A DNA stretch of 62,183 bases from the NCBI GenBank assembly GCA_017634975.1, contig JAGBMJ010000005.1, positions 1 through 62,183 of the forward strand, in the 5' to 3' direction. A program made the translations under genes and the position numbers. Within the stretch, counting starts at the first letter, position 1. Each line of letters begins with the position of its first letter. The stretch comes from Lachnospiraceae bacterium. GTDB taxonomy: Bacteria > Bacillota > Clostridia > Lachnospirales > Lachnospiraceae. The notes beneath the pieces were generated by a model. The model saw nothing but the letters and a program-made list of their open reading frames with translations, had not been told where the DNA came from and did no database searches. Shown piece by piece: positions 30,686 through 61,114 of the stretch.

Positions 30686-31144
30686 TCAACCACCATTCGT
30701 TCCATCAAAACCTGACGGTTTATCTGCCGACCAAGTATTGTTCATCAGATAATAATTATTACCATTAATTGTTACATGCATTTTTAATATCTGATAAGAA
30801 TTATTCGTCTTATCAAGAGTAACCGCATCATAACTTACCGGGACCCCATCCAAAGTATAATTATTGTTACTACCTGTAGCGCCTACAAGCCGCCAAACAC
30901 TTGAAGCCTCTACTTTATCCTCTAAATTACCATTACCATCCCACTTTGCATATGCTTCTGCAAGAGCTGATTGATATGCAACTCTAACCGTTTGCGCCGT
31001 GGAGAAATCTTTCTCCTTCTTCGCTCTGTCAATATACCCCATCAGTGTCGGCACCAGAATCGCTGCCAAAATTGCAAGAATGACCAAAACTACGATCAGC
31101 TCAACTAATGTGAAACCTTTGTTGTTCATTTTTCTTCTCTTCAT
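30686..31144 (-). CDS. Type IV major pilin-like protein
   Basis: This protein of about 152 residues has a short basic leader MKRRKMNNKG, then the prepilin cleavage motif G|FTLVELIVVLVILAILAA, with Glu at +5, which runs into the N-terminal helix (VPTLMGYIDRAKKEKDFSTA). The rest is a small Asn/Ser/Tyr-rich globular head. It should be cleaved and methylated by a prepilin peptidase and assembled by the PilB/PilC machinery encoded to the right. The start shown is the ATG 9 bases after AAAGGAG; the ATG two codons earlier is the alternative. Having its own promoter and terminator fits a major pilin needed in excess. Confidence 0.9.
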   Translation of the reverse strand: MKRRKMNNKGFTLVELIVVLVILAILAAILVPTLMGYIDRAKKEKDFSTAQTVRVAYQSALAEAYAKWDGNGNLEDKVEASSVWRLVGATGSNNNYTLDGVPVSYDAVTLDKTNNSYQILKMHVTINGNNYYLMNNTWSADKPSGFDGTNGG

Positions 31145-31226
31145 AATCATGTACTCCTTTACCTTTAGATTTTTTATTGGTGGGACATCCTGTCCCTCTG
31201 CCACAACTATTATATGTATCGGTACA

Positions 31227-31255
31227 ATTATACAAAACTTTAGGGGAATTATCAA
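31227..31255 (-). promoter_or_regulatory. Promoter of the major pilin gene
   Basis: -35 TTGATA (31250-31255), a 17-base spacer and a perfect -10 TATAAT (31227-31232) on the minus strand. The leader is about 75 bases long. Further right, ATGTAAA (31321-31327) and TTTACAT (31355-31361) form a widely spaced inverted repeat of unknown meaning; nothing else is evident in 31256-31444. Confidence 0.8.
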
Positions 31256-31949: not shown

Positions 31950-31978
31950 GTCCTCCCCAACCGGGGAGGACTTGTTTT
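31950..31978 (+). terminator. Terminator of the small cassette
   Basis: GTCCTCCCC-AACC-GGGGAGGAC is a perfect 9-bp stem followed by TTGTTTT. It reaches into the stop codon of the convergent pilB gene. Confidence 0.85.
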
Positions 31979-33665
31979 ACTCGTTATACGCGATACGCTG
32001 CACCTCTTCCATCGTGGTGACGCCTTCTTCCAGCAGACGGAGTGCTGCCATCTTGATGCTCTCCATCCCCTGATATTCAATGGCATACTTTGTGATCTCT
32101 TCTGCGGTTGCACCGGCTGCGATCATACTGCGTACCATCTTATCTGCCACCAATACCTCATGCACGGCGATACGTCCGGAATATCCGGTATTGTGACATT
32201 TCGAGCATCCCATCGCCTTCTTCGCCGTCGGGATATCCCTGCCAGCAAATTCCCGCTCGGCATCATCCAACCCTACCACCTGTCCGCAATACGGGCATAC
32301 CTTACGGAGAAGTCGCTGAGCCACCGCACCTACCAGAGCCGAGGACAGCAGATACGGTTCTGCTCCCATATCGATCAGACGGATGATGGTGGATACCGCA
32401 TCGTTGGTATGCAGGGTGGAAAGCACCAGGTGACCGGTGATCGCGGCGCGAAGAGAAATGCTTGCAGTTTCGGGATCTCGCGTCTCACCGACCATGATAA
32501 CATCCGGATCCTGTCGCAGCAGAGCCCGCAAGCCCACTTCAAAGGTAAGTCCCGCCGTCGGATGTACCTGCATCTGGTTCAGATGCGCCAGGTTCTTCTC
32601 CACCGGATCCTCAATGGTCGAGATGTTTACCGGCTTGGTCGCCAGAGAACCGAGCGCCATATATAGGGTTGTCGTCTTACCGGAACCGGTCGGACCGGTG
32701 ATGTAGATCAGACCATTCGGCGATTTCAGCATTTTGATAAACTTATTGTAGTTATTTGGTGTCATACCAAAGGTATCGCTGCGGTCAATGTCGGAATTGG
32801 ACGCCAGGATACGCATTACCACCTTTTCGCCGAATACGGTCGGGATCACACTGACACGGACGTTGACGATCTGATCGCGGATACGGATACGGAAATGTCC
32901 GTCCTGCGGTACACGGCGTTCCGCGATATCCAGTTCACCAATGATCTTGATACGTGCCACCAGTGCGTTCTGCACGTTTTTATTCAGAGTCATATAGTTC
33001 AAAAGCACACCGTCCGTACGCATACGCACCAGGATCTCTTTTTCAAACGGTTCGATATGCACGTCGGATACGCCGTCCTGATAAGCTTTATCCAAAAGCG
33101 AGTTCACCAGATTGATGATAGGAGCATCATCCGCTGTCGCATTAGCATCAATGATGACTTCCTGGGTTTCGCTGGCGGATGCGTTTTCACTCGCGTTTGC
33201 CGCCGCCTGCTTGGTCTTGATCGCTGCGTAATGATAGGTGATGGCATCTTTCAGCGGCTGGGATTCTGCCAGCAGGGAATGGATATTCATACCTGTGGTC
33301 TGACGGACATCCTCAATCGCATACAGGTTCAGCGGGTCATTCATTGCCACCGTCAACAGACCATCCTGCAAAGATACCGGCAGGATCAGATACTGCTGCG
33401 CCATCTGGATCGGTATGGTCTTTACTGCCTCTTCCTCTACCGGATAGGTGGAGATGTCGATCAGGCTGGTCTGCAGACGATCTGCCAACGCTGTCAGCAT
33501 CTGCCGTTCCTGCACATACCCCTGCTCGATCAGGATCTGACCGATACGTTTGGAACGATCCTGTTTCTGCAGAGCCAGCGCCTCCATCAGCTGTGCCTCC
33601 GTGATGTACCCGGAATTGACCATTAAGTCGCCCAGTCGTATTTCTTTTATGAGTTTATTATCCAT
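31977..33665 (-). CDS. pilB: Type IV pilus assembly ATPase PilB (GspE family) with MshEN-like N-terminus
   Basis: This 562-residue hexameric ATPase should power pilin polymerisation from the cytoplasm. The Walker A motif is GPTGSGKTTTLYMALGS, with Asp/His boxes around it, and the C-terminal metal-binding tetracysteine is CPYCGQ...CSKCHNTGYSGR. The N-terminus holds two tandem motifs, RLGDLMVNSGYITEAQL (from residue 10) and RIGQILIEQGYVQERQM (from residue 40), close to the c-di-GMP-binding MshEN consensus. No PilT retraction ATPase is found in the window. It is the last gene of the pilus operon, which runs from the right. Confidence 0.93.
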   Translation of the reverse strand: MDNKLIKEIRLGDLMVNSGYITEAQLMEALALQKQDRSKRIGQILIEQGYVQERQMLTALADRLQTSLIDISTYPVEEEAVKTIPIQMAQQYLILPVSLQDGLLTVAMNDPLNLYAIEDVRQTTGMNIHSLLAESQPLKDAITYHYAAIKTKQAAANASENASASETQEVIIDANATADDAPIINLVNSLLDKAYQDGVSDVHIEPFEKEILVRMRTDGVLLNYMTLNKNVQNALVARIKIIGELDIAERRVPQDGHFRIRIRDQIVNVRVSVIPTVFGEKVVMRILASNSDIDRSDTFGMTPNNYNKFIKMLKSPNGLIYITGPTGSGKTTTLYMALGSLATKPVNISTIEDPVEKNLAHLNQMQVHPTAGLTFEVGLRALLRQDPDVIMVGETRDPETASISLRAAITGHLVLSTLHTNDAVSTIIRLIDMGAEPYLLSSALVGAVAQRLLRKVCPYCGQVVGLDDAEREFAGRDIPTAKKAMGCSKCHNTGYSGRIAVHEVLVADKMVRSMIAAGATAEEITKYAIEYQGMESIKMAALRLLEEGVTTMEEVQRIAYNE

Positions 33666-33703: not shown

Positions 33704-34534
33704 TCAATCTTTCTTCCTTGGCACTTCGATGCCTGCCATCTTTTCGTCGTACATATACAGTCTCAGCCGTACCGTCAGCTGTTTTTCACGGCTGTCCGAT
33801 ACCAGCACGGTCCCATCTTCCAAAGTCCGCACGACCGGCGGCATCTCATCCCAGGCAAAACCGGTCACGCGAACAGACGGTTTCACCAGAATATCATCCA
33901 AAAGCTTCTGCGCCCGATCTGCAGTTCCGGTCAGTACGATCGTCACATCCGCCGCCCGAACCCCGGATGCTGTGGTATCCTTTACCATCATCTGTTTTTC
34001 AGAATATACCTCCAACGGCGTCTTAACAAAATTCACCATCAGATCATCCGCAGAAATACCTTCCGAAGAAGAATCCGTATCCGTTTCTTCCGAAGCTGTA
34101 TTGGAAGACGAAGATGATGAGGAACTCTCTCTTGCCGCCAATACCTTTCCGATCTCAGAATGCTTATATGGCATTTCCTCCAAAGCGGAGATTGGCATAG
34201 CGATCAGCAGATCCTTCGCCCGCAGACCAAATCCCAGCACATACATAGTGAACATCTTATCGATCTCGGAGGAATCCATAGGCGCATAATATTCTCCGGT
34301 AGCCTCCTCCAGATCTTCTTCAAACGTGTCCATCAGGATCTGTGCCGATGTGAGTCCCATCACCTTATTCTCATTCTGCTGTTTCAATGCCTGCGCCGAC
34401 ACGATATCTTCATCTGTTTCCATGATCGACTTGATGATCGGCCGCATCAGGACCCAACCGAATACAAACAGGATCACGATGAATCCCAGCATATATAAGA
34501 GTTTTTTGTCTCTCGGTGTTAATGTAGCTTCCAT
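33704..34534 (-). CDS. PilO/GspM-like pilus alignment protein
   Basis: This 276-residue protein has one N-terminal span (about 14-32) and an outside part with a helical coiled-coil stretch, a serine-rich linker (about 136-160) and a ferredoxin-like C-terminal fold. Topology and position directly after the PilM-PilN fusion match PilO, which links the inner-membrane platform to the pilus. The similarity is structural and contextual rather than by strong motif. Confidence 0.75.
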   Translation of the reverse strand: MEATLTPRDKKLLYMLGFIVILFVFGWVLMRPIIKSIMETDEDIVSAQALKQQNENKVMGLTSAQILMDTFEEDLEEATGEYYAPMDSSEIDKMFTMYVLGFGLRAKDLLIAMPISALEEMPYKHSEIGKVLAARESSSSSSSSNTASEETDTDSSSEGISADDLMVNFVKTPLEVYSEKQMMVKDTTASGVRAADVTIVLTGTADRAQKLLDDILVKPSVRVTGFAWDEMPPVVRTLEDGTVLVSDSREKQLTVRLRLYMYDEKMAGIEVPRKKD

Positions 34535-34537
34535 TGA

Positions 34538-35989
34538 TCAGCCCTCCGCCAGCGTGCATACCACATGGATCGACCATGTATTGTCCTCTTCGTTCTTGGT
34601 ATAACCGGTATAATCCACCAGTTCAAAGATATCCATTGCCAACAGACGTGCGATGAACTTATTGATCTTTTCCACATCCTCTGCTGTAGCGATCACTTCC
34701 AGGATGCCGCTCTCTGCCGAATAGGAATCGATCACCACACCGACATCTTCCAGCCCTGCCGCATTCATAATGCTCTTATTCACGGACGAATCCGGGATCG
34801 GATAGGTATCCCGATATTCCTTCAGCAGATCCACACTTCCCTGTGCCACGCCCAGCTTTTCTGCCTCTTTCATCAGCATATCATGCTCCGCTGCCGATTC
34901 CACGATCGAAGGCTGCATATTGTACTGCTGCAACACTGCCAACTCCGCCTTTTTCTGACTCCGGATCACCAGGAGTACTATCGTGACAATGAGCAACAGG
35001 ATGACTACCGCCACATAAGGAACGATCAAAGTGGTCATTGTCTTTTTCTTTTGATAATCCTGTGAATCCCGTTTCCACGCTTCCAGAATGGATAACCCCT
35101 CCTGGGTACCGAAAAAGCCTGCGATCGAGAACAGATAATCGCCGAACTTATCCGCAGCCGTATTCATGATCACACTGTCCGGCTTCGTCATAATCCCTAA
35201 AACATCCCCCAGCGGATATCCCTGCAGCTCACTCTTCAACAGGTTCATATCTTCCATGTTCAGACCGGCGATGTAAATATTACTGATCTCATGCTCTATA
35301 TGCTGTGCCGTAGCAAACTGACGAATAGCGGAGATCGCGTTCCGGATCTCTGCCGAGAATTCTGATGTACCGGGGATCGAATATACACGGGTGTTCAGAT
35401 TGTTAAAGTAATTTCCTTCCGCAAACAGGATCGTCGTCAGGTTCATACCGTCCAGGATCATATAGACCACGGTATTTTTGTTTACCTGCGTCTGCATCAT
35501 ATTTACGGCCAAGTTGATGCCGGCATGAAGGGAATTCAGTTTCACCCCTGCGGCTTCAAAAATACGGATATAAGTCTCCACAAACTCCTTCTCCGCCATC
35601 TCCGAGATCACCTGCTGGGTCTTCTTCTTTTTGCTGATCGGATACCATCCAAGGATCGGTTCGCTGAATCGCGCCGTATCCTTCTCATCCACTTCATTAT
35701 TAACAAACTTATTAGCCTTGTTCCCCGTAAGCAGCGGCATCTCGATACGCCTTGCCAGCAGATTCGGGCTGTTGATCACCAGATCCACATTTTTTTCCTT
35801 GATGGCATGCTTACGCCAGGTATCGCGGATCGTATCCTGCAGGACCGATTCATTGATCACGGTACCGTTCAGCAGGGTTCCATCCGGGATCGCATCCGCA
35901 TAAAGCGCCTTGATCTTTACTTTCTTTCCCGATTTTTCTCCCAGCACCACCTGTATGCTGCTGTTGGATAAAAAGACATTTACCTTCAT
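34538..35989 (-). CDS. PilM-PilN fusion protein
   Basis: This 483-residue protein appears to join two normally separate pilus proteins. Residues about 1-300 look like the actin-like cytoplasmic PilM (VNVFLSNSSIQVVLGEKSG, then DLVINSPNLLARRIEMP and MILDGMNLTTILFAEGN). A single span lies near 335-357 (LIVPYVAVVILLLIVTIVLLV), and the rest is a PilN-like outside domain with a coiled coil. PilM binds the N-terminal tail of PilN in known systems, so a fusion would make that link permanent. A GGAGATATTTCAA ribosome site supports the start. Confidence 0.82.
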   Translation of the reverse strand: MKVNVFLSNSSIQVVLGEKSGKKVKIKALYADAIPDGTLLNGTVINESVLQDTIRDTWRKHAIKEKNVDLVINSPNLLARRIEMPLLTGNKANKFVNNEVDEKDTARFSEPILGWYPISKKKKTQQVISEMAEKEFVETYIRIFEAAGVKLNSLHAGINLAVNMMQTQVNKNTVVYMILDGMNLTTILFAEGNYFNNLNTRVYSIPGTSEFSAEIRNAISAIRQFATAQHIEHEISNIYIAGLNMEDMNLLKSELQGYPLGDVLGIMTKPDSVIMNTAADKFGDYLFSIAGFFGTQEGLSILEAWKRDSQDYQKKKTMTTLIVPYVAVVILLLIVTIVLLVIRSQKKAELAVLQQYNMQPSIVESAAEHDMLMKEAEKLGVAQGSVDLLKEYRDTYPIPDSSVNKSIMNAAGLEDVGVVIDSYSAESGILEVIATAEDVEKINKFIARLLAMDIFELVDYTGYTKNEEDNTWSIHVVCTLAEG

Positions 35990-36034: not shown

Positions 36035-37228
36035 TCAGCCTGCTCCGATCGTGGAATAACTCTGATAGATCGGGGTGATAACACCGATCATAACGAAACC
36101 TACGATCACTGCCATCACTATGATCGTTACCGGCTCGATATATTTTACCAGCCGTGACATAGCCTGTGCGGCCTTAAAATCCAGATCATTTGCGATCGAG
36201 GTGAGCATCTTGTCCAGCATACCGGTTTCCTCACCGACACGGATGACCGACGGCAGCTTGATGATAAAGCCATCCACCTTTTCAATGGCATCCGAAAGCG
36301 CCACACCGGCCTGCAGGTCTTTGTTTACCTGTTCAAACTGCTTTTCCACATATTTGTTCCCGATCGTCTGGCTGGCGATCGACACGCACCGGTCTACCGG
36401 AATACCGGCTGAATACAGGGAACTTAAGGTTCTCGCAAAACGCGCAGAATAAATGGTGTTGTTTAATTTACCGATCTTTCCCTTTGTTTTCATGGTATCT
36501 ACAAAGAGCTTGACCTTCGGAACACGGAGCAGAATGCGTCCGAAGAAGACGAACGCCGCCCCCCCGATGATGATCACAGGCCAGAAACCCGACACAAAAT
36601 CGCTGATGGCGATCAGAATACGTGTCGTGATGGGCAGCGAAGGCATCTGTGCAAAGAGTTCCTGGAACTGCGGCATTACAAAACCGAAGATCGCCAGTAC
36701 CACACCCACAATGAGCGCCATCAGGATCTTCGGATAGACCAAAGCACTCTTGGTATTCTCTTCGAGCTGAAACTCTCTGGTAAACTGATCTGCCAGATTC
36801 AGGGCCGTGATATCCATATTTCCGGAGCTCTCTGCTGCACGGAACATATAGATCATCAAAGGCGGAAATGCGGGATACAGACCCTCCATCGTCGTGGATA
36901 AACCGATACCCTGTATTACCTTGGTCCGCAATTCCGTAAACAGATATCTCTCGTAGGGCGTGATGGACTCGTTCCCGGCCAGGATCTCCAGCAGGCGCAC
37001 CAAAGGCACACCAGCCTGGGTCATGGTTCCCAGCTCGGTACAAAAATTCGCCAGTTCACTTTTTTTCAGTGGCTTTAGTGTGATCCTTTTACCGGCCGCT
37101 TTGGCGCTGATCAGCATCTGCCCCTTAAGCCGCAGCTTCTTCTGCAGATCCGCCTCATCTACTGCGATCACCTTGCCGCTATACTGCTTTCCGTCCGCAT
37201 CCTGCGATCTGAACTTATACTCCGGCAT
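36035..37228 (-). CDS. pilC: Type IV pilus inner-membrane platform protein PilC (GspF family)
   Basis: This 397-residue protein has two repeated GspF-type helical domains and about three membrane spans (near 165-190, 215-235 and 365-390). Family marks include FCTELGTMTQAGVPLVRLLE and its second-half copy FARTLSSLYSAGIPVDRCV, and SVIRVGEETGMLDKML. The N-terminal part YKFRSQDADGKQYSGKV is typical of PilC. It should anchor PilB and couple ATP hydrolysis to pilin insertion. A GGGAGATAGTAG site precedes the ATG. Confidence 0.95.
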   Translation of the reverse strand: MPEYKFRSQDADGKQYSGKVIAVDEADLQKKLRLKGQMLISAKAAGKRITLKPLKKSELANFCTELGTMTQAGVPLVRLLEILAGNESITPYERYLFTELRTKVIQGIGLSTTMEGLYPAFPPLMIYMFRAAESSGNMDITALNLADQFTREFQLEENTKSALVYPKILMALIVGVVLAIFGFVMPQFQELFAQMPSLPITTRILIAISDFVSGFWPVIIIGGAAFVFFGRILLRVPKVKLFVDTMKTKGKIGKLNNTIYSARFARTLSSLYSAGIPVDRCVSIASQTIGNKYVEKQFEQVNKDLQAGVALSDAIEKVDGFIIKLPSVIRVGEETGMLDKMLTSIANDLDFKAAQAMSRLVKYIEPVTIIVMAVIVGFVMIGVITPIYQSYSTIGAG

Positions 37229-37263: not shown

Positions 37264-37725
37264 TCATTCCCACGCTGTCGTATAGGTTAATACATGGAAC
37301 TCATAGTAGATGTCCCACTGACCGTCCGTCGTCCCCCCATCACCAAGCGCCTGATACTCCACCATAAACGAACCCTTCCGGTAGGTGAAGGATCGCGGCA
37401 GACCGCTCCTGTCATCCCATCCCGTCAGTACAATTTTTCCGTCCGCATACGTCAGTTCCCGGATCCGCTGTGCCGCCCCTTTGAGCATTCCGTCCGGTGT
37501 CGTCGGATCGTACAGAGCTTCTCCGGCAGCCGAGCATTCCAATGCCGTCAATCGCATCGCCACGCGGATATCCCTGGCTTCCTGCATCGCATGGTGCGCC
37601 TGCGAATCGATCCTGCACCAGCAAAAGAAGATCGCCAGCACGACCAGCAGGATCACACCCGGAAGAAGCATCTTCCGCAATACGCTCCATATAGTTCGTT
37701 GTTCAAATATGATCTCTTCTTCCAT
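37264..37725 (-). CDS. Single-span protein of the pilus operon
   Basis: This 153-residue protein has a charged start (MEEEIIFEQR), one span (about 20-40, LLPGVILLVVLAIFFCW) and a small outside domain. It resembles a minor pilin in size and layout but has no prepilin cleavage motif. It lies between the giant pilin gene and pilC in the same orientation. A pilus accessory role is likely from context only. Confidence 0.7.
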   Translation of the reverse strand: MEEEIIFEQRTIWSVLRKMLLPGVILLVVLAIFFCWCRIDSQAHHAMQEARDIRVAMRLTALECSAAGEALYDPTTPDGMLKGAAQRIRELTYADGKIVLTGWDDRSGLPRSFTYRKGSFMVEYQALGDGGTTDGQWDIYYEFHVLTYTTAWE

Positions 37726-37790: not shown

Positions 37791-40700
37791 TCAAGCCGCC
37801 GGCTCGGTAATCTCCCCGGAAGTATCCTCTTCAAAATCCTCTTTTTCAGGAACATCTAAATCATCCATGTTTTCATCTACGCCATTTGATTCAGCTTCAG
37901 GTGTTTCCTCTTCATCTTCAAGGCTTTCCGATTTCTCAGTCTCATCGCCTTCAGTAGATGGATACTCCTCTTCTGCCGGCAGATCTTCCTCAAACATTTC
38001 TTCATCGGTTTTCAGTGACGGATAGTACTCTTCTATCTCCTCAGGATTCATCTCATCCAATCCATCCTCAATCGAATCCTCTGTAAAATCTTCTCCTGCA
38101 CTATCATCCTCACTAGTCACTGCCTGATCATCAAAGCCTTCGATATCAGTGGCGATTTCCACATTTTCGATAACACCTTTTTTATTATTTTCTCCAACAT
38201 AACCTGCGCGAGGCTTCGTCATATCACAATGATCTTTATCGATCTGTACATTATGAATATGATAGACCAGTGTTCCACCACTTTCCGAAAATACACCACA
38301 TTTTCCTTTTTCATTGTTATACCCGAGAATAAACCCTGTTTTCTTTCCGCTTACAATGATCTTCCCACCACCAGGTTGCACGTCAAAACTATCACTTCCG
38401 GCTCTGCCAAAACTGCCGGCATTTGCCCCCATGATTCCACCGGCATGACCATTGGTCGCAGCTACCCTAAACTCTCCGCTTGATACCTTAATAGCAATGT
38501 CCGGTATGAATTTTGCATAATTACTACCTATCATTCCACCTGCATATTCAGTATTGGCAGTTATAGAAGAAACTCCACCATCCATATTGATCGTATATGT
38601 AGTTCCCTTACTCACAGCTGCCCCGCCATCAAGATATCCTATGATGCCTCCGACATTTCTAGCGCCTTCTATTGTTGTGCCAGACATTGTTACATTCATA
38701 GTGCTTTGCATTGCAGATGCATCACCTTCCACAATCGAATCACCAGCCTTACCAATAATCCCGCCTACATCGTTACCGCTACTTGTGATCGTAGCTCCTG
38801 TAAGGTCTGCCTGAATAAAACTATTAATCTTTTGTGTCGGAAACTTAATACCTGTCTGTCCGATCACTCCGCCTACACCATTTCCGCCCCCCTTAATCAC
38901 TGCCCCTTTAAGATCGGCTATGATAGTACTATTGATATTACCAGGGGTATGATTACCACCCGTAACACCGATCACTCCACCAACACCGCCTGCACTTCCG
39001 GTAACAGAAACAATCCCGTTGACCTCAAGCCTGGAACTGCTATCCTGTCCAACCCTTCCGTCCATACAGCCAATCCAGCCGCCAACATATTCCTGTCCGG
39101 AAACAATAAACAAAGTATCTTTGGACGTTATGCTTCCATCAAGGTTTCCCATCATATATCCTATAATACCGCCCAAATCCCATGTCTTTCTTCCTCTGCC
39201 CGTGTCCGGAAGAATGCGGATACAACACTTCTCACCGTCCTCACGCTGAGATTTAATCTCTATACTCTCTATTGTTGCATTTGCGCTCTCACACTGCCCT
39301 ATAACGCCGCCAAGCGAACTGAAACCGGAACGGATTGTCAAATCATATTGTAAGTAAAGCTTAAGATCTCCAATATGAACAATATCGTTTCTCCCATTAT
39401 CGTTAAAATTTCCGATGTGTCCGATCACACCACCGATACTCTTGTGATCTCCTAAAACCGTAGCCCCTCCCAGCGGCGTCCCGGCTTCAACATTATCATT
39501 TACATATTCACTGTCTATATAAGTAGAAAGTGTCCCTGTAGCATCACTTTTTTGAATGTAACCAATTACGCCACCTCTATGTCCATAATTTCCCAAAACC
39601 TGCCCCCCGGCAAGATGTGTTGTATAATTTCCATACAGATTACTATTTTCCACTCTGCCAAAAACACCACCGATATTCCATCCGCCGCCCTTGACATAAT
39701 ATCCCTCTTTCAATGTCACATCCACAGAGCAGTTTACTTTAGAACCGCCATAAACAGCTCCAACAAATCCTCCGGTTCCCCTTTCCCCTCTACCGCCGGT
39801 AGCTACAGATTCTACTGATTGGATTCCCGTGATTTTAAAGGAATCCCCCGATGTTCCTACAACGCCTGCCTTTATCTCTCCAATACAGCCACCCACATGC
39901 TGATTTCCCGAAATATTAAGCAGGACAGTATCAGAGAAAGCAATTTTCCCCATAGTACTATCTGTTAATGTCCCTATATAACCTCCAACATTGTTTAACG
40001 CATTAATACGAATAGATGCAGTTCCGGTCAGGTTGGAAACAGTGCTGTTTTCCGTAATCTGACCGACCATTCCACCTACGGAGGAGGTTTTCGGCACATC
40101 CAATATAACTTCTCCACCGGACAGATTCACATTTTCCACCTTGCTGCCTTTTCTTACCCAGCCAACAACCCCACCTATCGCCGTATAGGAATTGGCCGGC
40201 GTTGTTACCAGTTTTCCTGTTTCTGTCATGCTCACAGAGGCTTCCTGTACAATTGGTCCATTCTGATCACTTCCGATACAACCAATGCTGCCTCCGATAT
40301 AACTGTTTGTTGCATCGATAGCTGACATATCCATTATACCGGTACCATCATATTCTACTGCCACACGAGAATACACAGCAGTACCATCGACCATACCAAT
40401 ACCACCACCCACATAGGCCTGACTTGCAGAAATCACATGATTTGCCGAAATTCTGGCACTGACAATTCCCGCGCTGGTCTGAATATTTGTATAACCTATA
40501 GCACCACCAACATAACCTTTGCCTATGATCGCATTGTCAGCTCCAATCACACTACTTATGGAGCCTGTCATATTTGGAGCATTTACAGCACCTATAGCGC
40601 CACCAACATAACTTGTCCCCGTTATCACCTGCGTTGCATTTCCGCCGGGGATAGCCACTTTCACATCCGCAGCAAAATCAGAACTGCTGCTTTGTGCATT

Positions 40701-43700
40701 GATATCATCATAGACGTAGCCGATTGCTCCGGCCACATACAGGTCTATCCCCGATATCGTTGTCTTTGGATGCAAAGCTACCGCATACGTATATTTATCG
40801 TTACCTGTCATTGCCACGGTTCCATTGTGCTGACCTGCACCTTTCAGGTCATGCATATAAAAACATCCGGCCATACCGGCTACATACTTTCCGCCCGCAA
40901 TATTCATAACCAGCTGATCGGAACCATTTTGTGTCGGCATTTCAATCTGTACACCATAAGCTCCGTTATAGGTTCCGACAACGCCTACTACACCACCAAT
41001 ATTCTTATTATCCGCCTGTACCGTAGTATAATCCTTGCATCCCTTTACGGAAAGCGTCGGCACATCTGCACTTCCTTTCAGTTCGTCATCTGCCGGTATC
41101 ACTCTCCGCAAAGCCATAGTTATCTCTGTAGCTACCCCTTGCTGTTGGCCGCATCCTACCACACCACCAACATTTCTATGTCCGCAGATAAAAGCATCGC
41201 CATACACCTGTGTATTGATCATACTATAAGCAGCCTGCGCTCGCAAATAGCCAACACTCCCGCCTATATTGATACCTTTTCCTTTGATCTGAGCATAATC
41301 GCAAACCCCTGCGATTATGCTTACTGTTTTTCCGGGCGCCCCCTTTACTTCCTTTCTGATACACCCTACAGCCCCTCCAACATTATTACCGTTAGCTATC
41401 ACAGCAGCATTTTTCTTCAGAAGACTATAAATATGAGAATTATTTTGCAAACCATAGATGTATCCTATAGCTCCGCCTACGCCATAGCAATAATCCTGAG
41501 CCCCCTTCCAATATTTATCCTCTGTCTGATTATTTATAGAATCTTCACCATATACTGCGCCGCCATTTTCTGCTCTGACATAAATGGAAGGATACGCCGG
41601 ATTGCCGGATGTCATCACATAAGAACCAATAGCCGTTCCAATGCCATACTCATAAGAATTCTGAGTCTGATTCAGATTCATATTCAGATTACAACAAAGT
41701 ATACCTTCATTATCTACATTAAATACATACGTATCTGACACCTTCCCAAAGTCTTTTATATACCCGATCCCTACTGCAGCAGAGCGTGATTGACCATATG
41801 CTTTATTTCCGTTATCCGAATCGATTGCTGTATCTCGTGTTCCTATCCGTCCCGTCTGTGTATTCTGAGCACTGATATACATCGCACTTGCGCTTCCCTG
41901 ATTGATATATCCGACAGCTCCTCCTAAATACCTGCCGTAACTATTGTTAGAAGTTAAGATATACCCTTTATTTATACTTTTTATACTAAGAACCTTGCTC
42001 TGATCATATTTATATATCTGCCCTACTGCACCTCCAATCCCTTCATATCCGGCGGCAGTATCATCCGAGTGTCCCCCATATTGCCAGATATATGAATTCT
42101 CAGCCAGAATCACCGATATCGCATATTCTACATCCGTCTGTTCCTTTATCGATACAACGCCATCATTACCACTACTGTAATCCGACTCTGTCATTGGTGT
42201 TTTTTGGGCAAAATATCCTTCAACAACATAACCAACTGCACCGCCTATATACTTTCTTCCCATAATAAGGCTATCAACACCAGCCGGAAAAGCAACAATA
42301 TTTTCAATAGTATCTTTTTCACTATCCACGCCTAAACAAGCATCCACGCCTCCGTGGACATTACCTATTACACCACCAACGAAATATGCTCCTGCAACTG
42401 CATAATCACCATCTGTTTCAATATAGCCTGCTGATCTTGCTTCTTTAGAGTAATATCCGATCACGCCGCCGATTCCTGCCGGTTGGTCAGGGTCAGATAC
42501 ACCCTTTCTAATATACATTCTGAATTTTTTCCAGTTTGTTCCTTCCCATATCCCTGCTAACACTATAGGATTACTCATCCTTATGGTATTATCTTCCTTG
42601 GAGATACTGAGATCATCCAACCCCAGCGTTCCGTTTTGAACCCCTATTAAGCCGCCCACAGGATATGGTTTGATCTGTTTGCCATCTGCCAATTTGTATT
42701 TTGTATTATCATCTATGTTAATAAACGAATCATTTTTATCTTCTCCATGTTTAAACAGACGTACCAAAGTCTCTGCTACGCTCTGCCCACTCGGCTCTGT
42801 TTGACCATCTGTAACGCTTTCCAAGGTCAAACAGAAATTCTCACAACGAATATTACAAATAATTCCCTCGTTCTTACATATAAAAGCATATCCTTCATCC
42901 GTGGACACAAAGGACTGTCTGCGCATCTGTACGTTACGGATGACCGCTGTTTTATCATCGCTTGCTGTACTTATTGCATTCTCTTTTGCAATAAGGATCT
43001 GGTTGGATGAAATCTCCGGTAATGCAGGCCAGGAGACCACTTTAAGATGTGCCAAATCTGCTGATCCTCTGTAGTTTCCTACCGGTGAATAGCCGGTCAG
43101 ATAATTACTGGTTATATTATAAACTTCCACTTCACTGGTATAAGCATTTTCTGATTTACGATACCAGTCCAGATCTCTTCGGATCTCGTATACGATTGGC
43201 TTCACTTCTTCTGAATTCTCAAATTTACAATTCACAGTATAGCGCATATTATAGAGATGGCGGAACGAGGTGATGCTTGCGATCTGCTGTTTGCCGGCTT
43301 TCCCGTTTTCCTGTACATCTACATAATCATTCTTATTACCAAAACTGCCATATCCGAGGTCACCAAAAAAGGTATTGCATACGGCATACCCTGCAGCATC
43401 TCTGGTCGCACATTCTTCCGGAGCGCACTTGCCCGGATCTTTATATACATACCGTCCATCCCCTGCCATATAAACCGGGTCGTCATACGCCCTTTTCGCA
43501 TTAACCGACTCCGAAGCCGGCAGATTCTCCGTATAATTATACTTTGCTAAATCTGTGTCGGTAAAATCATCTACCGCCGCTGTCATAGATACTCTTATGT
43601 TTTTTGGCGAAGATTTATCCAGCAAAAGTCTCGTAATGCTGTAGTTCAGATACTTATCATTTTCAGTCTTCTTCAGCTCCGCATTACGAGACATCATGGC

Positions 43701-45026
43701 ATCCAGCGCAATCGAATAAGAAACATATTCTCTCCGATCCGTTTCGGAATACTGTTTGATCACATAGGAGATCGTCAACGGAAAACGATAAAACTTTCCA
43801 TCCGTCAGATCATTCGCCGATAAAAGATTATAATCGAAATCATTATGCCCACCGGTATTTACATATACCAACGCCGTCGTTTCCACAGAGGCCTTGTATC
43901 GCACAAAATGCGCATTGGTATCATCTGTCATATGATCAATGGTATACACTACCGGCAGCTCTCTGCCACCGACGTTTTTATTTACCACAGAGCCGTTTCC
44001 GTAACTGTTCGGCGCAAACTTCAGATCCTTGCAATAGTCCACCGGCTGACTCCCGTCCGGTCTTCCCTTCGTCAGATACGCTTCACTGATCACCAGATCT
44101 GCAAGCCATCTGTCGTCACTCGTATCATAAATCGATGCTGTATAGTGAAGGTAATTATCGGTTCCCTCACCTGCACCCATTCCGGTCAGATTCTTGCCGT
44201 CATAGATTGCGCTGAACGACAACTCCAGCTTCTCTCCATTACGCATTGCCAGTTCTGCAAATTCCATCTTTTTGTTTACAACAGGAGTATATACGGAATC
44301 AACTGCCGCCGGATTACCGCCATTATAATATCCTACCAGGCTGGTGTCCGAACGATACGCATATTCCCTCCAGGGAACCACATTCCCGGATTCCTTCAGT
44401 GCCTTTTCATCCCAATCCGTACGTTTTTCATCATAGAAAACAGCATAGGTATTAACACCATAGTGAACCTGTCTGTCACCACCGATCGTTTTTTCCACAT
44501 CAAATTCGATCGTAAAGGTAGCATTCAGGATGGAGGTATCGTAGAAATACCCCCCGACCAGGTCTGTGATGGCCTTATTACCTTCACCATTTCCGCCTTT
44601 CTGATATGATAAGATATAGCGCATATGCACAGACTCACCGACCGAATTATGATTTTCATCAAACTGTTCAAAAGCGGTCGCATTAAAACAATCATCCAAT
44701 ATGTTGCCGGACGCATCTTTGTCATTATTCGGATGCGCACCGGTATCACAGGGATCCTGCTGGCCCTTCTTCATCAGTGTATTTTGGATCCAGTCTTCAA
44801 CATCTCCGGCATTCTTTTTACGTCCCAGTGCGGTCTGTACTGCCTGATATATGCTCTGTGCATTCTGTTCATTATTGTCAAATCGGGATCTGTCAATATA
44901 CCCGATAATCGAAAAGACCGCGACCGAAGCCAATATAGACAGGATCGCCAGCACGACAATAAGCTCCACCATAGTGAAGCCCTTCCGATTTCTTATATAC
45001 CTGTATTGTTCTGCATACTTTTTCAT
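37791..45026 (-). CDS. Giant prepilin-type adhesin with GLUG-like repeats
   Basis: This 2411-residue protein begins with a bona fide prepilin signal: a basic leader ending NRKG, then FTMVELIVVLAILSILASVA with Glu at +5, then a pilin-like helix containing SRFDNNEQNAQSIYQAVQTA. Residues about 50-790 form a mixed region. From about 795 to 2285 there are dozens of units of 30-60 residues with the core GGVIGYI or GGAVGYI, which resemble GLUG repeats and suggest a long beta-solenoid. The final 110 residues are extremely acidic. It should be cleaved by a prepilin peptidase and incorporated into the pilus, probably at the tip. The gene is more AT-rich than its neighbours. Confidence 0.9.
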   Translation of the reverse strand: MKKYAEQYRYIRNRKGFTMVELIVVLAILSILASVAVFSIIGYIDRSRFDNNEQNAQSIYQAVQTALGRKKNAGDVEDWIQNTLMKKGQQDPCDTGAHPNNDKDASGNILDDCFNATAFEQFDENHNSVGESVHMRYILSYQKGGNGEGNKAITDLVGGYFYDTSILNATFTIEFDVEKTIGGDRQVHYGVNTYAVFYDEKRTDWDEKALKESGNVVPWREYAYRSDTSLVGYYNGGNPAAVDSVYTPVVNKKMEFAELAMRNGEKLELSFSAIYDGKNLTGMGAGEGTDNYLHYTASIYDTSDDRWLADLVISEAYLTKGRPDGSQPVDYCKDLKFAPNSYGNGSVVNKNVGGRELPVVYTIDHMTDDTNAHFVRYKASVETTALVYVNTGGHNDFDYNLLSANDLTDGKFYRFPLTISYVIKQYSETDRREYVSYSIALDAMMSRNAELKKTENDKYLNYSITRLLLDKSSPKNIRVSMTAAVDDFTDTDLAKYNYTENLPASESVNAKRAYDDPVYMAGDGRYVYKDPGKCAPEECATRDAAGYAVCNTFFGDLGYGSFGNKNDYVDVQENGKAGKQQIASITSFRHLYNMRYTVNCKFENSEEVKPIVYEIRRDLDWYRKSENAYTSEVEVYNITSNYLTGYSPVGNYRGSADLAHLKVVSWPALPEISSNQILIAKENAISTASDDKTAVIRNVQMRRQSFVSTDEGYAFICKNEGIICNIRCENFCLTLESVTDGQTEPSGQSVAETLVRLFKHGEDKNDSFINIDDNTKYKLADGKQIKPYPVGGLIGVQNGTLGLDDLSISKEDNTIRMSNPIVLAGIWEGTNWKKFRMYIRKGVSDPDQPAGIGGVIGYYSKEARSAGYIETDGDYAVAGAYFVGGVIGNVHGGVDACLGVDSEKDTIENIVAFPAGVDSLIMGRKYIGGAVGYVVEGYFAQKTPMTESDYSSGNDGVVSIKEQTDVEYAISVILAENSYIWQYGGHSDDTAAGYEGIGGAVGQIYKYDQSKVLSIKSINKGYILTSNNSYGRYLGGAVGYINQGSASAMYISAQNTQTGRIGTRDTAIDSDNGNKAYGQSRSAAVGIGYIKDFGKVSDTYVFNVDNEGILCCNLNMNLNQTQNSYEYGIGTAIGSYVMTSGNPAYPSIYVRAENGGAVYGEDSINNQTEDKYWKGAQDYCYGVGGAIGYIYGLQNNSHIYSLLKKNAAVIANGNNVGGAVGCIRKEVKGAPGKTVSIIAGVCDYAQIKGKGINIGGSVGYLRAQAAYSMINTQVYGDAFICGHRNVGGVVGCGQQQGVATEITMALRRVIPADDELKGSADVPTLSVKGCKDYTTVQADNKNIGGVVGVVGTYNGAYGVQIEMPTQNGSDQLVMNIAGGKYVAGMAGCFYMHDLKGAGQHNGTVAMTGNDKYTYAVALHPKTTISGIDLYVAGAIGYVYDDINAQSSSSDFAADVKVAIPGGNATQVITGTSYVGGAIGAVNAPNMTGSISSVIGADNAIIGKGYVGGAIGYTNIQTSAGIVSARISANHVISASQAYVGGGIGMVDGTAVYSRVAVEYDGTGIMDMSAIDATNSYIGGSIGCIGSDQNGPIVQEASVSMTETGKLVTTPANSYTAIGGVVGWVRKGSKVENVNLSGGEVILDVPKTSSVGGMVGQITENSTVSNLTGTASIRINALNNVGGYIGTLTDSTMGKIAFSDTVLLNISGNQHVGGCIGEIKAGVVGTSGDSFKITGIQSVESVATGGRGERGTGGFVGAVYGGSKVNCSVDVTLKEGYYVKGGGWNIGGVFGRVENSNLYGNYTTHLAGGQVLGNYGHRGGVIGYIQKSDATGTLSTYIDSEYVNDNVEAGTPLGGATVLGDHKSIGGVIGHIGNFNDNGRNDIVHIGDLKLYLQYDLTIRSGFSSLGGVIGQCESANATIESIEIKSQREDGEKCCIRILPDTGRGRKTWDLGGIIGYMMGNLDGSITSKDTLFIVSGQEYVGGWIGCMDGRVGQDSSSRLEVNGIVSVTGSAGGVGGVIGVTGGNHTPGNINSTIIADLKGAVIKGGGNGVGGVIGQTGIKFPTQKINSFIQADLTGATITSSGNDVGGIIGKAGDSIVEGDASAMQSTMNVTMSGTTIEGARNVGGIIGYLDGGAAVSKGTTYTINMDGGVSSITANTEYAGGMIGSNYAKFIPDIAIKVSSGEFRVAATNGHAGGIMGANAGSFGRAGSDSFDVQPGGGKIIVSGKKTGFILGYNNEKGKCGVFSESGGTLVYHIHNVQIDKDHCDMTKPRAGYVGENNKKGVIENVEIATDIEGFDDQAVTSEDDSAGEDFTEDSIEDGLDEMNPEEIEEYYPSLKTDEEMFEEDLPAEEEYPSTEGDETEKSESLEDEEETPEAESNGVDENMDDLDVPEKEDFEEDTSGEITEPAA
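38170..42640 (-). repeat. GLUG-like Gly-rich repeat array in the giant pilin gene
   Basis: Degenerate units encode (V/I)GG(V/A)(I/V)G followed by Y/C-(I/V), spaced 30-60 codons apart. Matching antisense strings such as 'acaccaccaa' and 'ccgcctac' recur throughout. DNA copies are diverged, so the array is old rather than freshly amplified. Confidence 0.85.
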
Positions 45027-45925: not shown

Positions 45926-46272
45926 TCAAATACCCAGTATGTCAATTCTCCGTTCACCGCAGTATATCGGACTGCCTTAATTGCGTTCGCATTATCTACC
46001 CCTTCAACAAATGCCTGTTTTGCCGAAGCCGGCGCAGCCTCTGCCCCGGGCTCGTTCCCGCCGTAGATCTTACTCTGTAACTGCCGCATGCCCTGATCTG
46101 CTTCCCGTCTGATATCAATCGCATACTTCTGCGCTTCTCCGGCCGCCAGAATGGAATTTCCAAAAAATGCCAGTAGGATCAGGAGTACCATAAAAGCAAC
46201 CATCACTTCCACAATGGTCTCGCCCCGGTTACCCTTTTTCTGATTTTGGATGCATTTCATTATTCCGCACAT
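45922..46272 (-). CDS. Minor pilin-like protein (PilV/GspI type)
   Basis: This 116-residue protein has the leader QNQKKGNRG and then ETIVEVMVAFMVLLILLAFF, with Glu at +5 after cleavage. It has the length and motif of PilV/GspI minor pilins. Its start follows AAGGATATGAGAA, giving a 13-base overlap with the previous gene; a second ATG at 46260 overlaps the stop directly. Confidence 0.85.
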   Translation of the reverse strand: MCGIMKCIQNQKKGNRGETIVEVMVAFMVLLILLAFFGNSILAAGEAQKYAIDIRREADQGMRQLQSKIYGGNEPGAEAAPASAKQAFVEGVDNANAIKAVRYTAVNGELTYWVFE

Positions 46273-46739
46273 TTCTCATATCCTTCGTCTTTTTGTGCCT
46301 GATAGATCCCGGTCCAGATATATGCTGCTTTCCCTACTTTCGAGGTTACTTTCACAACAAATCGTCCCCCGGCATCTTTTGAAAGGACCGCTTCCACCGA
46401 GGCATCCGGCAGTCCGTCAAAACCGGACATCTCCATGATCGTTTTGTGATCACTCTGACCTAACACTTTTTCCGGATCCAGCAACGCCTTTTTCGGTTCT
46501 GCCCCTTCTTCGACCTCATCGGCTTTTTCCCCGTTGATGATCCGTTCCTCCAGCGCATTTCCCAGGCTCGTTGCCAGTTCATAGGCCTGATCCTGGTTCA
46601 GCTGCTGGTTGGCAGAGGCCATAATGATGCCGGCTAAAATCCGCAGGGACACCGTCAAACCGATAATCACCACGGTCAGAGCCGCAACAAGGATCAAGCT
46701 TGAACCTTTGTTCGATTTTAAGAACTTGAATTTATGCAT
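46260..46739 (-). CDS. Minor pilin-like protein (PilX-type), first gene of the pilus operon
   Basis: This 159-residue protein starts MHKFKFLKSNKG, then SSLILVAALTVVIIGLTVSL and a helical part. The G|SSLIL pattern is that of PilX-type N-termini, which lack the Glu at +5. The rest is a small acidic head. It is preceded by AAAGGAAAT and is the promoter-proximal gene of the operon that runs to pilB. Upstream 46740-46820 has an imperfect palindrome GGCATATTTGCC but no clear promoter. Confidence 0.78.
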   Translation of the reverse strand: MHKFKFLKSNKGSSLILVAALTVVIIGLTVSLRILAGIIMASANQQLNQDQAYELATSLGNALEERIINGEKADEVEEGAEPKKALLDPEKVLGQSDHKTIMEMSGFDGLPDASVEAVLSKDAGGRFVVKVTSKVGKAAYIWTGIYQAQKDEGYEKCAE

Positions 46740-46862: not shown

Positions 46863-47258
46863 CTATTTTGCGCTAAATGGCATAACATAGGGGTATCCAT
46901 ACTGTGGAATAATACTATCCGCTGTCAGTAGTTTCATATCTTCACATTTTGCCTGTATTATCAATAGCCGATCAAACGGATCATTGTGTATATCCTTAAG
47001 TATCGACAAATCGAATATATGTATAGGTGCAATACTAAGTAGATCAAACTCCCCTATTGCATCCGTCATAACATCTCTTGCAGCATATGGCATTGCTATG
47101 GGATGCTTATCATGCTTAATCTGTATCTCCCATAATGTTGCTATGCTGAAAAATACATCATTTTCTTCAGATTCAATCACCGAAATCACTTCAGACGGCA
47201 ACTTTGAACTTTTATATAACGCCCATAACAACGTATGCGTATCCAATAATATTTTCAT
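46863..47258 (-). CDS. vapC: PIN-domain toxin, VapC type
   Basis: This 131-residue protein has the PIN nuclease fold with acidic residues in MKILLDTHTLLWALY (Asp 6), SIATLWEIQIK and HNDPFDRLLIIQAK, followed by LLTADSIIPQYG. It is expected to be an Mg-dependent RNase, often cutting tRNA, held in check by the antitoxin encoded 5 bases upstream. The DNA is AT-rich compared with nadD next door. Confidence 0.88.
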   Translation of the reverse strand: MKILLDTHTLLWALYKSSKLPSEVISVIESEENDVFFSIATLWEIQIKHDKHPIAMPYAARDVMTDAIGEFDLLSIAPIHIFDLSILKDIHNDPFDRLLIIQAKCEDMKLLTADSIIPQYGYPYVMPFSAK

Positions 47259-54421: not shown

Positions 54422-55864
54422 TTACAGGTACGAAAATTTTACTTTCCCGATCTCGATCTCATCTTCCCGCTCCAGCATTACCGATTCCTCCGGCTCCAGC
54501 TGTACGCCGTTCAGATACGTTCCGTTCGTGGAACGGCAGTCCTGCAGATAGGCTCTTCCGTTCTTCTGAACGATCCGAGCATGGATCCTGCTGACCGATC
54601 GGTCCGTCAGGGCCAGATCCACGCAATCCTTCCTTTTGCCGATCGTATACGGAAAATGGTCGATCGGATATTCTTTCTTTTTTCCTTTTTCCACCAGGAT
54701 GTTTTCCGCCGGCAGATCCACCGCCCCGACAAAAACCGTCTTTCCGAAGTTTTCTTCCGGCTCCCGCTCACCTGCTTCTGCTTCAAAATTCTGCGATACA
54801 TCCGGCTCCTCCGGGCTCCGATTCCGGCCGACAGGATCGGTCCGGTACGATTCCCGCAGATCCATATCCGCAAATACATCCTCAATATCTCCGGGTGTCA
54901 AAGCATCTCTATCATTACTCTTTTTTCCGCCATCCGGTCTCTTCCGCAGCTGTAAAAAAAGAATGCCTGCGCCTGCTGCCACGATCACACCCGCTACCAG
55001 TTTGCCCGCACGGTCTGCATACCATCCGGGAATACTTCCGCTCAGCAAAAGGCTGCCTGCCAGGATGAGCACCACTGCAAGAATGAACGGAATCCTGTTC
55101 TTTTCCGCGCTTTCCATCCTTTCGGCTTCCGCTGTTTCCGGCAGCTCCAACAGCTCCGTATCTGCCTCCGGCCTGTTCTTTGCTTCACGCCCCTCCGGTC
55201 CCCGGTCTTCCCACAGCGGTTCTCCGCAATCCGCCTGCAATTCCGGGAGTCTAACCGTTTGTTCTGCGGAAGCTGTCTCCTTTTCCTCAAAAGCCCTGCG
55301 CAGATCCTCCGTCACATAGTTTCCTTTCCGGATCGTCTGGTAAACACGATATGCGCAAAGAGCCGCCTGAGGATCCCGGTGATCCGCATGTTCCATCAAA
55401 AACTCCGCAACCGCCAGCAGCGGATCCTCCTCTGCCGCTTCTCCCTCACCCTTTGGCAAAAACAACAGGTGGATCGTACCGTTTTCCATATCCGCAAAAA
55501 TATAAGCCGGGTCCAGTATCGCACTATCTTCCTCGAGCATATAATCCTGCATCTCCCCCAAAACATCCATGATCCCATACAGGATCTTCCGAATGTCTGT
55601 ACCCGAAAGCTCTCTCCGATCATAGATCCTGGTCAAAGGCTGCATGGAACTCACATCATAATACAGATTTTTTCTTCCCTCACGACATTTTATTTCCATC
55701 GGTATCAATCCCCGGATCCGGTTTTCCAAAACCATCCGCAGTTGATAATCCTCCTCATGATCCGCTTCCGCTGCCACTACCAGATAGTAATGCTCCAGGT
55801 TTTTCTGATAACGGATCTGCAGATTGCTCATACGTCCGCTGCTGTTTGTCCTGCTGTTTCTCAT
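54422..55864 (-). CDS. FHA-domain membrane protein of the Tad locus
   Basis: This 480-residue protein has an N-terminal domain of about 190 residues that resembles the DUF6382 region often fused to FHA, an acidic linker, two spans (about 265-310) and a C-terminal FHA domain (about 400-475) with TIGKRKDCVDLAL, SVSRIHARI and STNGTYLNGVQ, the residues that bind phosphothreonine. FHA proteins are found beside Tad and secretion loci, where they relay Ser/Thr kinase signals. The ATG overlaps the stop of the TadE-like gene and follows AAGGAGG. Confidence 0.85.
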   Translation of the reverse strand: MRNSRTNSSGRMSNLQIRYQKNLEHYYLVVAAEADHEEDYQLRMVLENRIRGLIPMEIKCREGRKNLYYDVSSMQPLTRIYDRRELSGTDIRKILYGIMDVLGEMQDYMLEEDSAILDPAYIFADMENGTIHLLFLPKGEGEAAEEDPLLAVAEFLMEHADHRDPQAALCAYRVYQTIRKGNYVTEDLRRAFEEKETASAEQTVRLPELQADCGEPLWEDRGPEGREAKNRPEADTELLELPETAEAERMESAEKNRIPFILAVVLILAGSLLLSGSIPGWYADRAGKLVAGVIVAAGAGILFLQLRKRPDGGKKSNDRDALTPGDIEDVFADMDLRESYRTDPVGRNRSPEEPDVSQNFEAEAGEREPEENFGKTVFVGAVDLPAENILVEKGKKKEYPIDHFPYTIGKRKDCVDLALTDRSVSRIHARIVQKNGRAYLQDCRSTNGTYLNGVQLEPEESVMLEREDEIEIGKVKFSYL

Positions 55865-56373
55865 TCCTCTGTTCCTCCTTCTGTTTGCATCTCCGTTACT
55901 GTTCCTTCCCCGTTCCTATCCTGCTCCCGGTGTTTTTCCGCAAGACGATCCACACGCCGGATCGTTCTCACGATCTGCGAGGAACGCATGCGTTCGGCGC
56001 TGTACTGCGCCTCCACCGACCAATTCCCGCAAAACCCGGCCAGCACCGGTGCATTAAGATATCCCTGCATACCCGCCCGGATCATCCCGTACTCTACCTT
56101 GACCTCCATCTGCGGCATCTCCATCAGGACCAGCTTATTTTCCAGCAGCTCAAAAATCTTTTTCTGCACATAGTCACTGATCTCCTCATTCGATTGCTCC
56201 GCCATCCGGCTTCCCTGTATCACCGCCGTCGATACGGCATAGTTCACAGCTGTTCTGTTGTACAGCAGCATCCCCGTCCAAAGCAGCAGAAACGTGATCA
56301 TCAGGGAGAGTGGGATGATCACGCATGCTTCGATCGTCATCATCCCTTTATTTCCGATTTTCCCTTTTCCCAT
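55861..56373 (-). CDS. TadE-like pseudopilin
   Basis: This protein of about 170 residues has a short basic start MGKGKIGNKG, then MMTIEACVIIPLSLMITFLL, the TadE-type N-terminus, and a long helix followed by a small outside domain. TadE pseudopilins are processed by the Tad prepilin peptidase. The start follows AAAGGG and lies 11 bases after the peptidase gene; an open frame continues upstream to 56745 but overlaps that gene. A charged tail (residues about 130-170) is unusual for TadE. Confidence 0.8.
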   Translation of the reverse strand: MGKGKIGNKGMMTIEACVIIPLSLMITFLLLWTGMLLYNRTAVNYAVSTAVIQGSRMAEQSNEEISDYVQKKIFELLENKLVLMEMPQMEVKVEYGMIRAGMQGYLNAPVLAGFCGNWSVEAQYSAERMRSSQIVRTIRRVDRLAEKHREQDRNGEGTVTEMQTEGGTEE

Positions 56374-56384
56374 ACTTCGCCCTT

Positions 56385-56816
56385 TCAGATGATCAGATAT
56401 CCTAAAAAACCGGCTGCCAGAAACGGCACAAACGGGATCCTGGTCTTTGCATCCGCCCTTCGCGATCCGATCAGAATAACCGCAATAACTGCCGTTAGCA
56501 GGACAGCGATCAGCAGCTGTTCCCCACACCCCGCTCCGCCGTACAAAAGCCCCATGATCATCACCATGACTCCGTCCGCCACACCGATACACCCGCTGAG
56601 CTTTCCCACAAGCAAAAGACTGCCGCCCAGCAAAATGCCGATCCCTTTCTGCTGCCAGTCTCCCGGATACTGTACTGCGATCAGCACCAGACTCCCGGCA
56701 CCGAACACCGCCATAAACCACACGGGCAGTCTCTGCGTTTTCCAATCCATTACACTGCCAAGCAACAATGCAATCCCTGTCCAGATCTCTCTGCTTCCGA
56801 GTATCCTATTTCCCAT
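56385..56816 (-). CDS. Small type IV prepilin peptidase (A24, TadV/CpaA type)
   Basis: This integral membrane protease of about 143 residues contains only the peptidase core without the methylase domain of PilD. The two catalytic Asp residues are in GSVMDWKTQRLP and GVADGVMVMIMG. Four to five spans are predicted. It should cleave the Flp pilin and the TadE-like proteins. It is the only prepilin peptidase in the window, so it could also serve the type IV pilus locus. The start follows AAAGGAGAAG. Confidence 0.87.
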   Translation of the reverse strand: MGNRILGSREIWTGIALLLGSVMDWKTQRLPVWFMAVFGAGSLVLIAVQYPGDWQQKGIGILLGGSLLLVGKLSGCIGVADGVMVMIMGLLYGGAGCGEQLLIAVLLTAVIAVILIGSRRADAKTRIPFVPFLAAGFLGYLII

Positions 56817-56839
56817 TTTCTTCTCCTTTCCGTCTTTTT

Positions 56840-61094: not shown

Positions 61095-61114
61095 CTGTTT
61101 TCCTCCGTTTTTCT

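Follow-up and report, generated by a model that had tools for sequence, protein, structure and literature searches.

A 2411-residue open reading frame in the 62,183-nucleotide stretch of Lachnospiraceae DNA analysed here (the window) encodes a giant type IV pilin, which we read as a modular minor pilin that presents a β-helical fibre of ~20 nm at the tip of a pilus for adhesion (rough probability 0.57). It is a modular pilin of an already known sort, far larger than those named in the available text of PMC8179133, PMC9934059 and PMC6561018; what is new, as far as the literature searched shows, is its size, its conserved core, its tie to an operon of K-, I- and J-like minor pilins and its spread over the order. 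The first-pass annotation, which named no strand, had proposed a pilin-anchored giant subunit forming a tip fibre, perhaps one that binds mucus or glycans. The frame lies on the minus strand (Table 1), and of that proposal a prepilin-anchored giant is supported, its module looking like a β-solenoid by profile similarity to a solved β-helix and by periodicity; tip position, mucus or glycan binding and processing by the peptidase are inferred.

Table 1. Parts of the giant pilin and genes of its operon, in window coordinates
Feature	Position	Strand	Evidence or remark
Giant pilin, 2411 aa (254.5 kDa mature, pI 4.69)	37791..45026	minus	ORF
Leader peptide, residues 1-16, last residue Gly16	44979..45026	minus	sequence and rule check
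Pilin helix and core common to relatives, residues 17-585, stopping just short of RHLYNMR (589-595)	43272..44978	minus	alignments
Entry to repeats, residues 586-780 (RHLYNMR ... RRDLDW), GGxxG-free	42687..43271	minus	
Repeat region, residues 781-2230, 32 GGxxG motifs at 791-2196	38337..42686	minus	motif count, PDB profile
Acidic tail, residues 2281-2411, pI 4.05, poorly conserved	37794..38186	minus	
K-like minor pilin, 159 aa, without Glu5	46260..46739	minus	no Pfam match
I-like minor pilin, 116 aa	45922..46272	minus	N_methyl above cut-off; overlaps K by 13 bp
J-like minor pilin, 300 aa	45023..45925	minus	N_methyl above cut-off; 4 bp overlap each with I and giant
153-aa protein, hydrophobic N-terminal stretch	37264..37725	minus	recurs in operons
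PilC platform protein	36035..37228	minus	T2SSF 6.1e-48
PilM-N fusion	34538..35989	minus	PilM_2 2e-5, sub-threshold; N part by eye
PilO-like	33704..34534	minus	T2SSM 0.0086, weak, sub-threshold
PilB extension ATPase	31977..33665	minus	T2SSE 2.6e-122, MshEN 1.5e-16
Major pilin candidate	30686..31255	minus	N_methyl 9.3e-10

The giant begins with a basic leader to Gly16, followed by FTMVE, in which Glu +5 is E21, and then by 23 uncharged residues. This start fits both the published Gram-positive pilin rule ([GAS]x4[DE] plus 14 uncharged residues) at G16 and the general type IV pilin signal, a hydrophilic leader to Gly/Ala, ~21 hydrophobic residues and usually Glu5. Pfam N_methyl (5.2e-8) and NCBIfam TIGR02532 (1.9e-7) also matched above their cut-offs, confirming the prepilin N-terminus claimed in the first pass. 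A profile of the N-terminal part matched solved pilins, best of all S. sanguinis PilE1 (profile positions 17-70, E 9.8e-6), whereas no solved structure in the PDB matched the core-domain profile, and Pfam found nothing besides N_methyl in the window protein. GspH was considered as an identity for the giant and rejected: its model matched 11 of 19 giants from the order far below cut-off and, wherever positions were given (the window protein and the first order member), within the common pilin helix. We assign the signal and the family with very high confidence. Such a class III signal would direct the protein to the membrane, and a prepilin peptidase would cut after Gly16.

The giant gene lies inside a type IV pilus operon. 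Three minor pilin genes stand upstream, each overlapping the next gene and the last overlap containing the giant's own start; downstream follow the 153-aa gene, PilC, PilM-N, PilO, PilB and the major pilin, the last two separated by 721 bp (first start codon as listed). Both an ATPase (T2SSE) and a platform protein (T2SSF), the companions by which a type IV pilin is judged, were thus found above cut-off in the giant's operon. Of the operon as first described, PilB and PilC scored above their Pfam cut-offs; PilM and PilO reached only sub-threshold scores. The names K, I and J rest on the missing Glu5 (K) and on gene order: Glu5 is missing in all nine aligned K-like proteins, a K subunit without Glu5 is described in the available text of PMC9934059, and a PDB search with K-like and J-like profiles gave no GspK or GspJ match and nothing naming these proteins beyond the pilin helix. 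A protein of ~150 residues with one hydrophobic stretch and a motif like LREAKNVRLA adjoins PilC in many operons, with no Pfam match above cut-off.

Behind the pilin part, the repeat region carries a regular glycine motif. The first pass had described over 2300 residues dominated by repeats, which proved too wide, as the motifs are confined to residues 791-2200 and the first 780 residues have none. The pattern G[GAS]x[VIAFLMC]G matched 33 times in residues 781-2295 (32 at 791-2196 and one at 2200), whereas 2000 shuffled versions of this stretch averaged 5.2 matches and never exceeded 14. Motif spacing had a median of 37 residues, with 26 of 31 spacings within 28-50. A ten-sequence profile (residues 1120-2295) found three distinct S. 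pneumoniae IgA1 protease chains in the PDB (E 2.3e-4), and the aligned stretch is β-helix by the residue ranges given in the available text of PMC7695701, with the numbering deduced from chain length. Given this similarity to a solved β-helix and the rung periodicity, the C-terminal module of the window protein is predicted with high confidence to be a β-helix; scaled from the ComZ solenoid (~380 residues per ~60 Angstrom), residues 781-2230 would be ~23 nm long. Assignment of the repeats to GLUG held for some relatives and fell short for the window protein itself, in which Pfam Glug (PF07581) gave no match at E ≤ 1 over the whole protein and the best single repeat scored 18.2 bits against a gathering score of 20.5. 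Since the same loose search also matched in 9 of 14 control genomes (2 above cut-off), sub-threshold Glug matches say little alone.

Sequence conservation falls along the chain. Mean pairwise identity (45 pairs) was 0.66 in the helix, 0.57 in the core, 0.48 and 0.41 in the two repeat halves and 0.17 in the tail, so that the repeats diverge faster than the pilin part, as expected of a ligand-facing end. The strongly acidic tail noted in the first pass is a property of the window protein (55 D/E among the last 130 residues) rather than of the group, as the tails of several of nine orthologues are T/P-rich, G-rich or not acidic.

At a threshold of 1e-15 the giant was matched in 11 of 60 genomes, all of one genus (its own genome and 10 of 34 others), and in none of 25 outside the genus. 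Nine of the ten other matches are long frames of 2276-2507 aa, or 2271-2504 aa as listed from the first start codon (that of G003 reaches its contig end), 40-56% identical to the window protein in the eight orthologues aligned; in the tenth, G014, the gene is in pieces, lying in several frames on two contigs. Gene order was the same in the orthologue operons as far as contigs and our ORF filter show, the filter having hidden an I-like gene in L035 and a small gene after the giant in L037. With nine long orthologues in the same operon of other genomes, the giant ORF is not an assembly artefact. Ten named loci recovered with the genus profile, a listing that may omit records near the window's own genome, were all titled Lachnospiraceae, three of them mentioning rumen or omasum, and include the isolates XPB1003, NK4A179 and AB2028. 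Contig C44 of the window's own assembly (1-4951, L043) holds part of another giant, a 1590-aa frame 65-67% identical to those of G002 and G027. We rejected it as a paralogue: it is only ~34% identical to the window protein, and the assembly is scored as 7.46% contaminated and has one PilM-N match. C44 is probably a stray contig of a relative.

The family reaches beyond the genus. A search with PilM-N led to 11 further pilus operons, ten within the genus (26-35% identity) and one in another family (22%); nine of them contain a giant frame of 1628-2448 aa, and the contigs of the remaining two stop before that point. The giants of L046 and L047 were cut by the fetched stretch, and their starts are not visible. 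N-terminal parts of six of these giants can be aligned with that of the window protein as far as RHLYNxR, which is invariant in the nine sequences compared. A core profile built without the pilin helix then matched, at 1e-5, 29 of the 392 order genomes searched, spread over 17 of 173 genera. All 29 homologues start with a prepilin signal; 25 of the frames reach 1000 aa, 15 reach 2000 and 6 reach 3000, with a maximum of 4121 aa. The core profile A8, into which order giants went, favoured relatives with RHLxN, a motif found in 13 of 19 order giants, 12 of which were used (L109 was left out). Of the four shorter members, G148 is split and G293 is truly short; the other two are G255 and G266. In wider samples, with own and order members counted, there were 13 matches in 391 genomes of the class and 5 in 398 of the phylum, and five frames above 1000 aa that start as pilins lie outside the order (G519, G657, G508, G727 and G1153). 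A 2995-aa frame from elsewhere in the phylum (G1099, L140:6871-15858, minus strand) was set aside, as it has GGxxG repeats and a Sec-like start without a prepilin signal.

Of twenty order loci retrieved, all but L117, whose gene is split, entered the alignment of 19 members. The 19 unsplit giants range from 1185 to 4121 aa, the 1580-aa giant of L115 running to its contig end, and minor pilins or other pilus genes flank 18 of them, with ORF starts assigned by reading. The exception is the G412 giant (L113), with no pilus gene visible in the 20 kb read and with dprA and comM relatives nearby. The family thus keeps a pilin core with C-terminal parts of variable length. GGxxG density varied from 0.34 to 1.76 per 100 residues across the 19 giants (37 motifs in 2097 aa, 19 in 4121 and 9 in 2633), and because the motif is sparse in several of them, not all giant chains need be solenoid throughout. 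Pfam Glug matched 5 of the 19 at E ≤ 0.01. When seven giants were read singly, N_methyl and Glug were both above cut-off in two (L104 and L110), and the union of prepilin motif and GLUG in one protein, suggested in the first pass as something to look for, is therefore real in the family. Searched singly against the PDB, the L104 giant gave one weak match only (E 0.021).

Some members carry further features. In G028, a second large modular pilin of 1192 aa with DUF285 repeats (1.4e-77; L050:16328-19906, minus strand) stands beside a GGxxG giant in the same operon. The 4035-aa giant of G214 (L099:4374-16481) closes with a hydrophobic stretch and then basic residues, resembling a second membrane anchor. 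In the giant of a distant relative (L054, G057), residues 1877-1918 between P/T-rich linkers resemble CBM_5_12 below threshold (21.8 vs 26.2 bits). This stretch is the only hint of a ligand; the window protein itself yielded no binding domain.

Across the order, the giant core tends to accompany the pilus genes. The PilM-N profile hit 29 of 392 genomes, 22 of them near full-length (at least 423 of 490 positions), and the core was present in 21 of these 22, on the same contig in 16 and on a different contig in 5. The other seven hits (at most 346 positions) had no giant core, giving 21 of 29 over all hits, and eight genomes with a giant core had no PilM-N hit at 1e-20. The Fisher value for co-occurrence, 2.8e-27, treats related genomes as independent. 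In G394, the one exception among near-full-length carriers, no giant pilin was found in the 20 kb read. In G293 the giant's place in the operon is taken by a 213-aa pilin that has the beginning of the core but lacks the solenoid. Both genomes were placed among giant carriers in a PilM-N tree, which omitted 7 of 39 sequences whose giants were unseen or broken and in which long branches make the placement unsure, hinting that the giant or its solenoid was lost there.

Under our preferred reading, the giant would join the K-, I- and J-like minor pilins in the type IV pilus, at its tip or close to it. By analogy with S. sanguinis PilB and PilC and with ComZ, its pilin part would let the machine build it in beside the other minor pilins, while the C-terminal β-helix of ~40 rungs, roughly 20 nm, would project from the filament as an extended binding surface for a ligand on the host, on plant fibre or on another cell. 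Assembly into the pilus is likely. The bulky module makes a position at the tip likely, and on balance we favour tip position and adhesion. Since a monoderm has no secretin to pass, modules this large may be allowed. In the available text of PMC8179133 and PMC9934059, S. sanguinis PilB (50.5 kDa), whose module is a vWA domain, is shown to act in adhesion and PilC, whose module is a lectin, to bind glycans. Those pilins are alike in having an N-terminal pilin part with a grafted module, in coming from a monoderm and a minor-pilin operon, and in their proposed tip complex; unlike them, the giant is of 254.5 kDa with a repeat region, and separate genes encode its K-, I- and J-like partners. As a putative large tip effector it would also be a functional analogue of PilC/PilY1, the very large protein presented by minor pilins on the type IV pili of diderms (PMC9934059, PMC10191384, as far as their text was available), though PilY1 is not a pilin and the giant is.

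Alternatively, the giant might be a pseudopilin-like surface protein, cleaved by the machinery and held in the membrane, whose repeats cross the wall as a stalk or adhesin without a long pilus. The ~23 nm estimated for the repeat region is on the scale of the Gram-positive wall, hydropathy shows a single membrane helix with no second membrane-like segment, and the C-termini of the ten giants from the genus contain no LPxTG anchor within 80 residues of the end. Against this stand the retained Glu5, a residue that serves filament assembly in other systems, and the gene's setting, in the operons read, among K-I-J, PilB, PilC and major pilin genes. We regard this as a minority possibility, though one to be taken seriously.

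An unlikely role is that of a DNA receptor for transformation, like ComZ of Thermus thermophilus, a DNA-binding β-solenoid pilin argued to sit at the pilus tip (PMC6561018, available text). Both would be pilins with a β-solenoid domain, that of the giant by profile only; ComZ, from a diderm, has a ~380-residue solenoid inside the pilin sheet, whereas the giant has ~1450 residues behind the pilin part, and ComZ was not among the PDB matches of the repeat, N-terminal or core profiles. In G026 (L036) and G003 (L038), dprA stands directly upstream of the K-I-J-giant operon, a comM-type gene (Mg_chelatase/ChlI) was confirmed before dprA in G026, and genes of both kinds adjoin the G412 giant; these neighbours leave room for a ComZ-like DNA role. 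The dprA and comM-type genes of the window's own genome, however, adjoin a second PilB/PilC/peptidase locus (C101). The giant is moreover acidic throughout (pI 4.69; repeat part 5.34), though ComZ itself has no evident positive patch, and this acidity and the graded divergence weakly favour adhesion over a DNA role.

The β-helix of IgA1 protease is of the GLUG type. A pilus-borne M26-type peptidase was weighed, a role we consider highly improbable. The repeat profile aligns with the N-terminal β-helix region of that enzyme, over ~150 residues only, and Peptidase_M26_N matched 3 of 19 relatives at E ≤ 0.01. At that threshold none of the 19 giants matched Peptidase_M26_C, no M26 family matched the window protein at E ≤ 1, and the zinc motif HExxH is in neither the window protein nor its nine orthologues and occurs once among the 19 order giants (L115). 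With HExxH absent, the resemblance to M26 IgA1 protease concerns the β-helix (PDB 6xja, 6xjb, 7jgj; PMC7695701, available text). Least credible of all is a decaying or non-functional gene, for which the broken G014 and split G148 copies might speak, but open, diverged copies stand in nine genus genomes and in other genera, and codon-position GC of the giant gene is uneven, as in coding DNA (0.519/0.418/0.383).

We take IPR011493 to be the GLUG entry, and an architecture joining it to IPR012902 may thus be of the giant-pilin kind. Raynaud et al. 2021 (PMC8179133, available text) read the IPR012902-IPR011493 architecture as M26 peptidase. Searches of open-access literature gave no paper joining type IV pili or pilins to GLUG, and the titles and abstract openings listed named no giant pilin, a GLUG pilin being possible in Dataset S1 of that study; the available text of PMC3672088 describes a 14-kDa pilin. 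Among the PilFind criteria is an upper length limit of 350 aa (PMC3244431, available text), and a filter of that kind would miss pilus subunits of 2000-4000 aa.

More tentatively, at somewhat less than even odds, the type IV pili of many Clostridia may bear a giant tip fibre of variable size, in which the core would replace the fourth (H-like) tip subunit and the long C-terminal part, which one species lacks and which exceeds 3500 residues in others, would be a changeable element of reach and binding. Such a fibre would be a monoderm counterpart of PilY1, possible where there is no outer-membrane secretin. If these are tip fibres, the nature of the pilus tip in monoderms of the gut and rumen could be put to a direct test, with the solenoid-free G293 version as a natural control and with chains of 1185-4121 aa.

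Other genes in and around these loci deserve mention. PIN-domain genes lie beside or inside giant operons in three genomes, at window 46863-47258 (minus strand, 2.5e-8), L098:1070-1486 (minus strand, 2.1e-14) and L099:3939-4328 (plus strand, 1e-15); that of the window sits between the operon and a nucleotidyltransferase gene and is not listed there in L032 or L035. Two 1129-aa frames with Glug above cut-off (G000 C6:45466-45954 and C103:8259-8747) have matching spacings and scores and are seemingly the same gene twice. The prepilin peptidase family PF01478 was above cut-off at three places in the genome, one of them in the window (56472-56774); PF06750, which matched in 8 of 14 control genomes, was not detected in the window's own genome. 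Positions 55861-62183 of the window (minus strand) resemble a Tad/Flp-type pilus locus, with an A24 peptidase above cut-off, TadE-like proteins recognized by eye and, where the window stops, a T2SSE fragment scoring below threshold.
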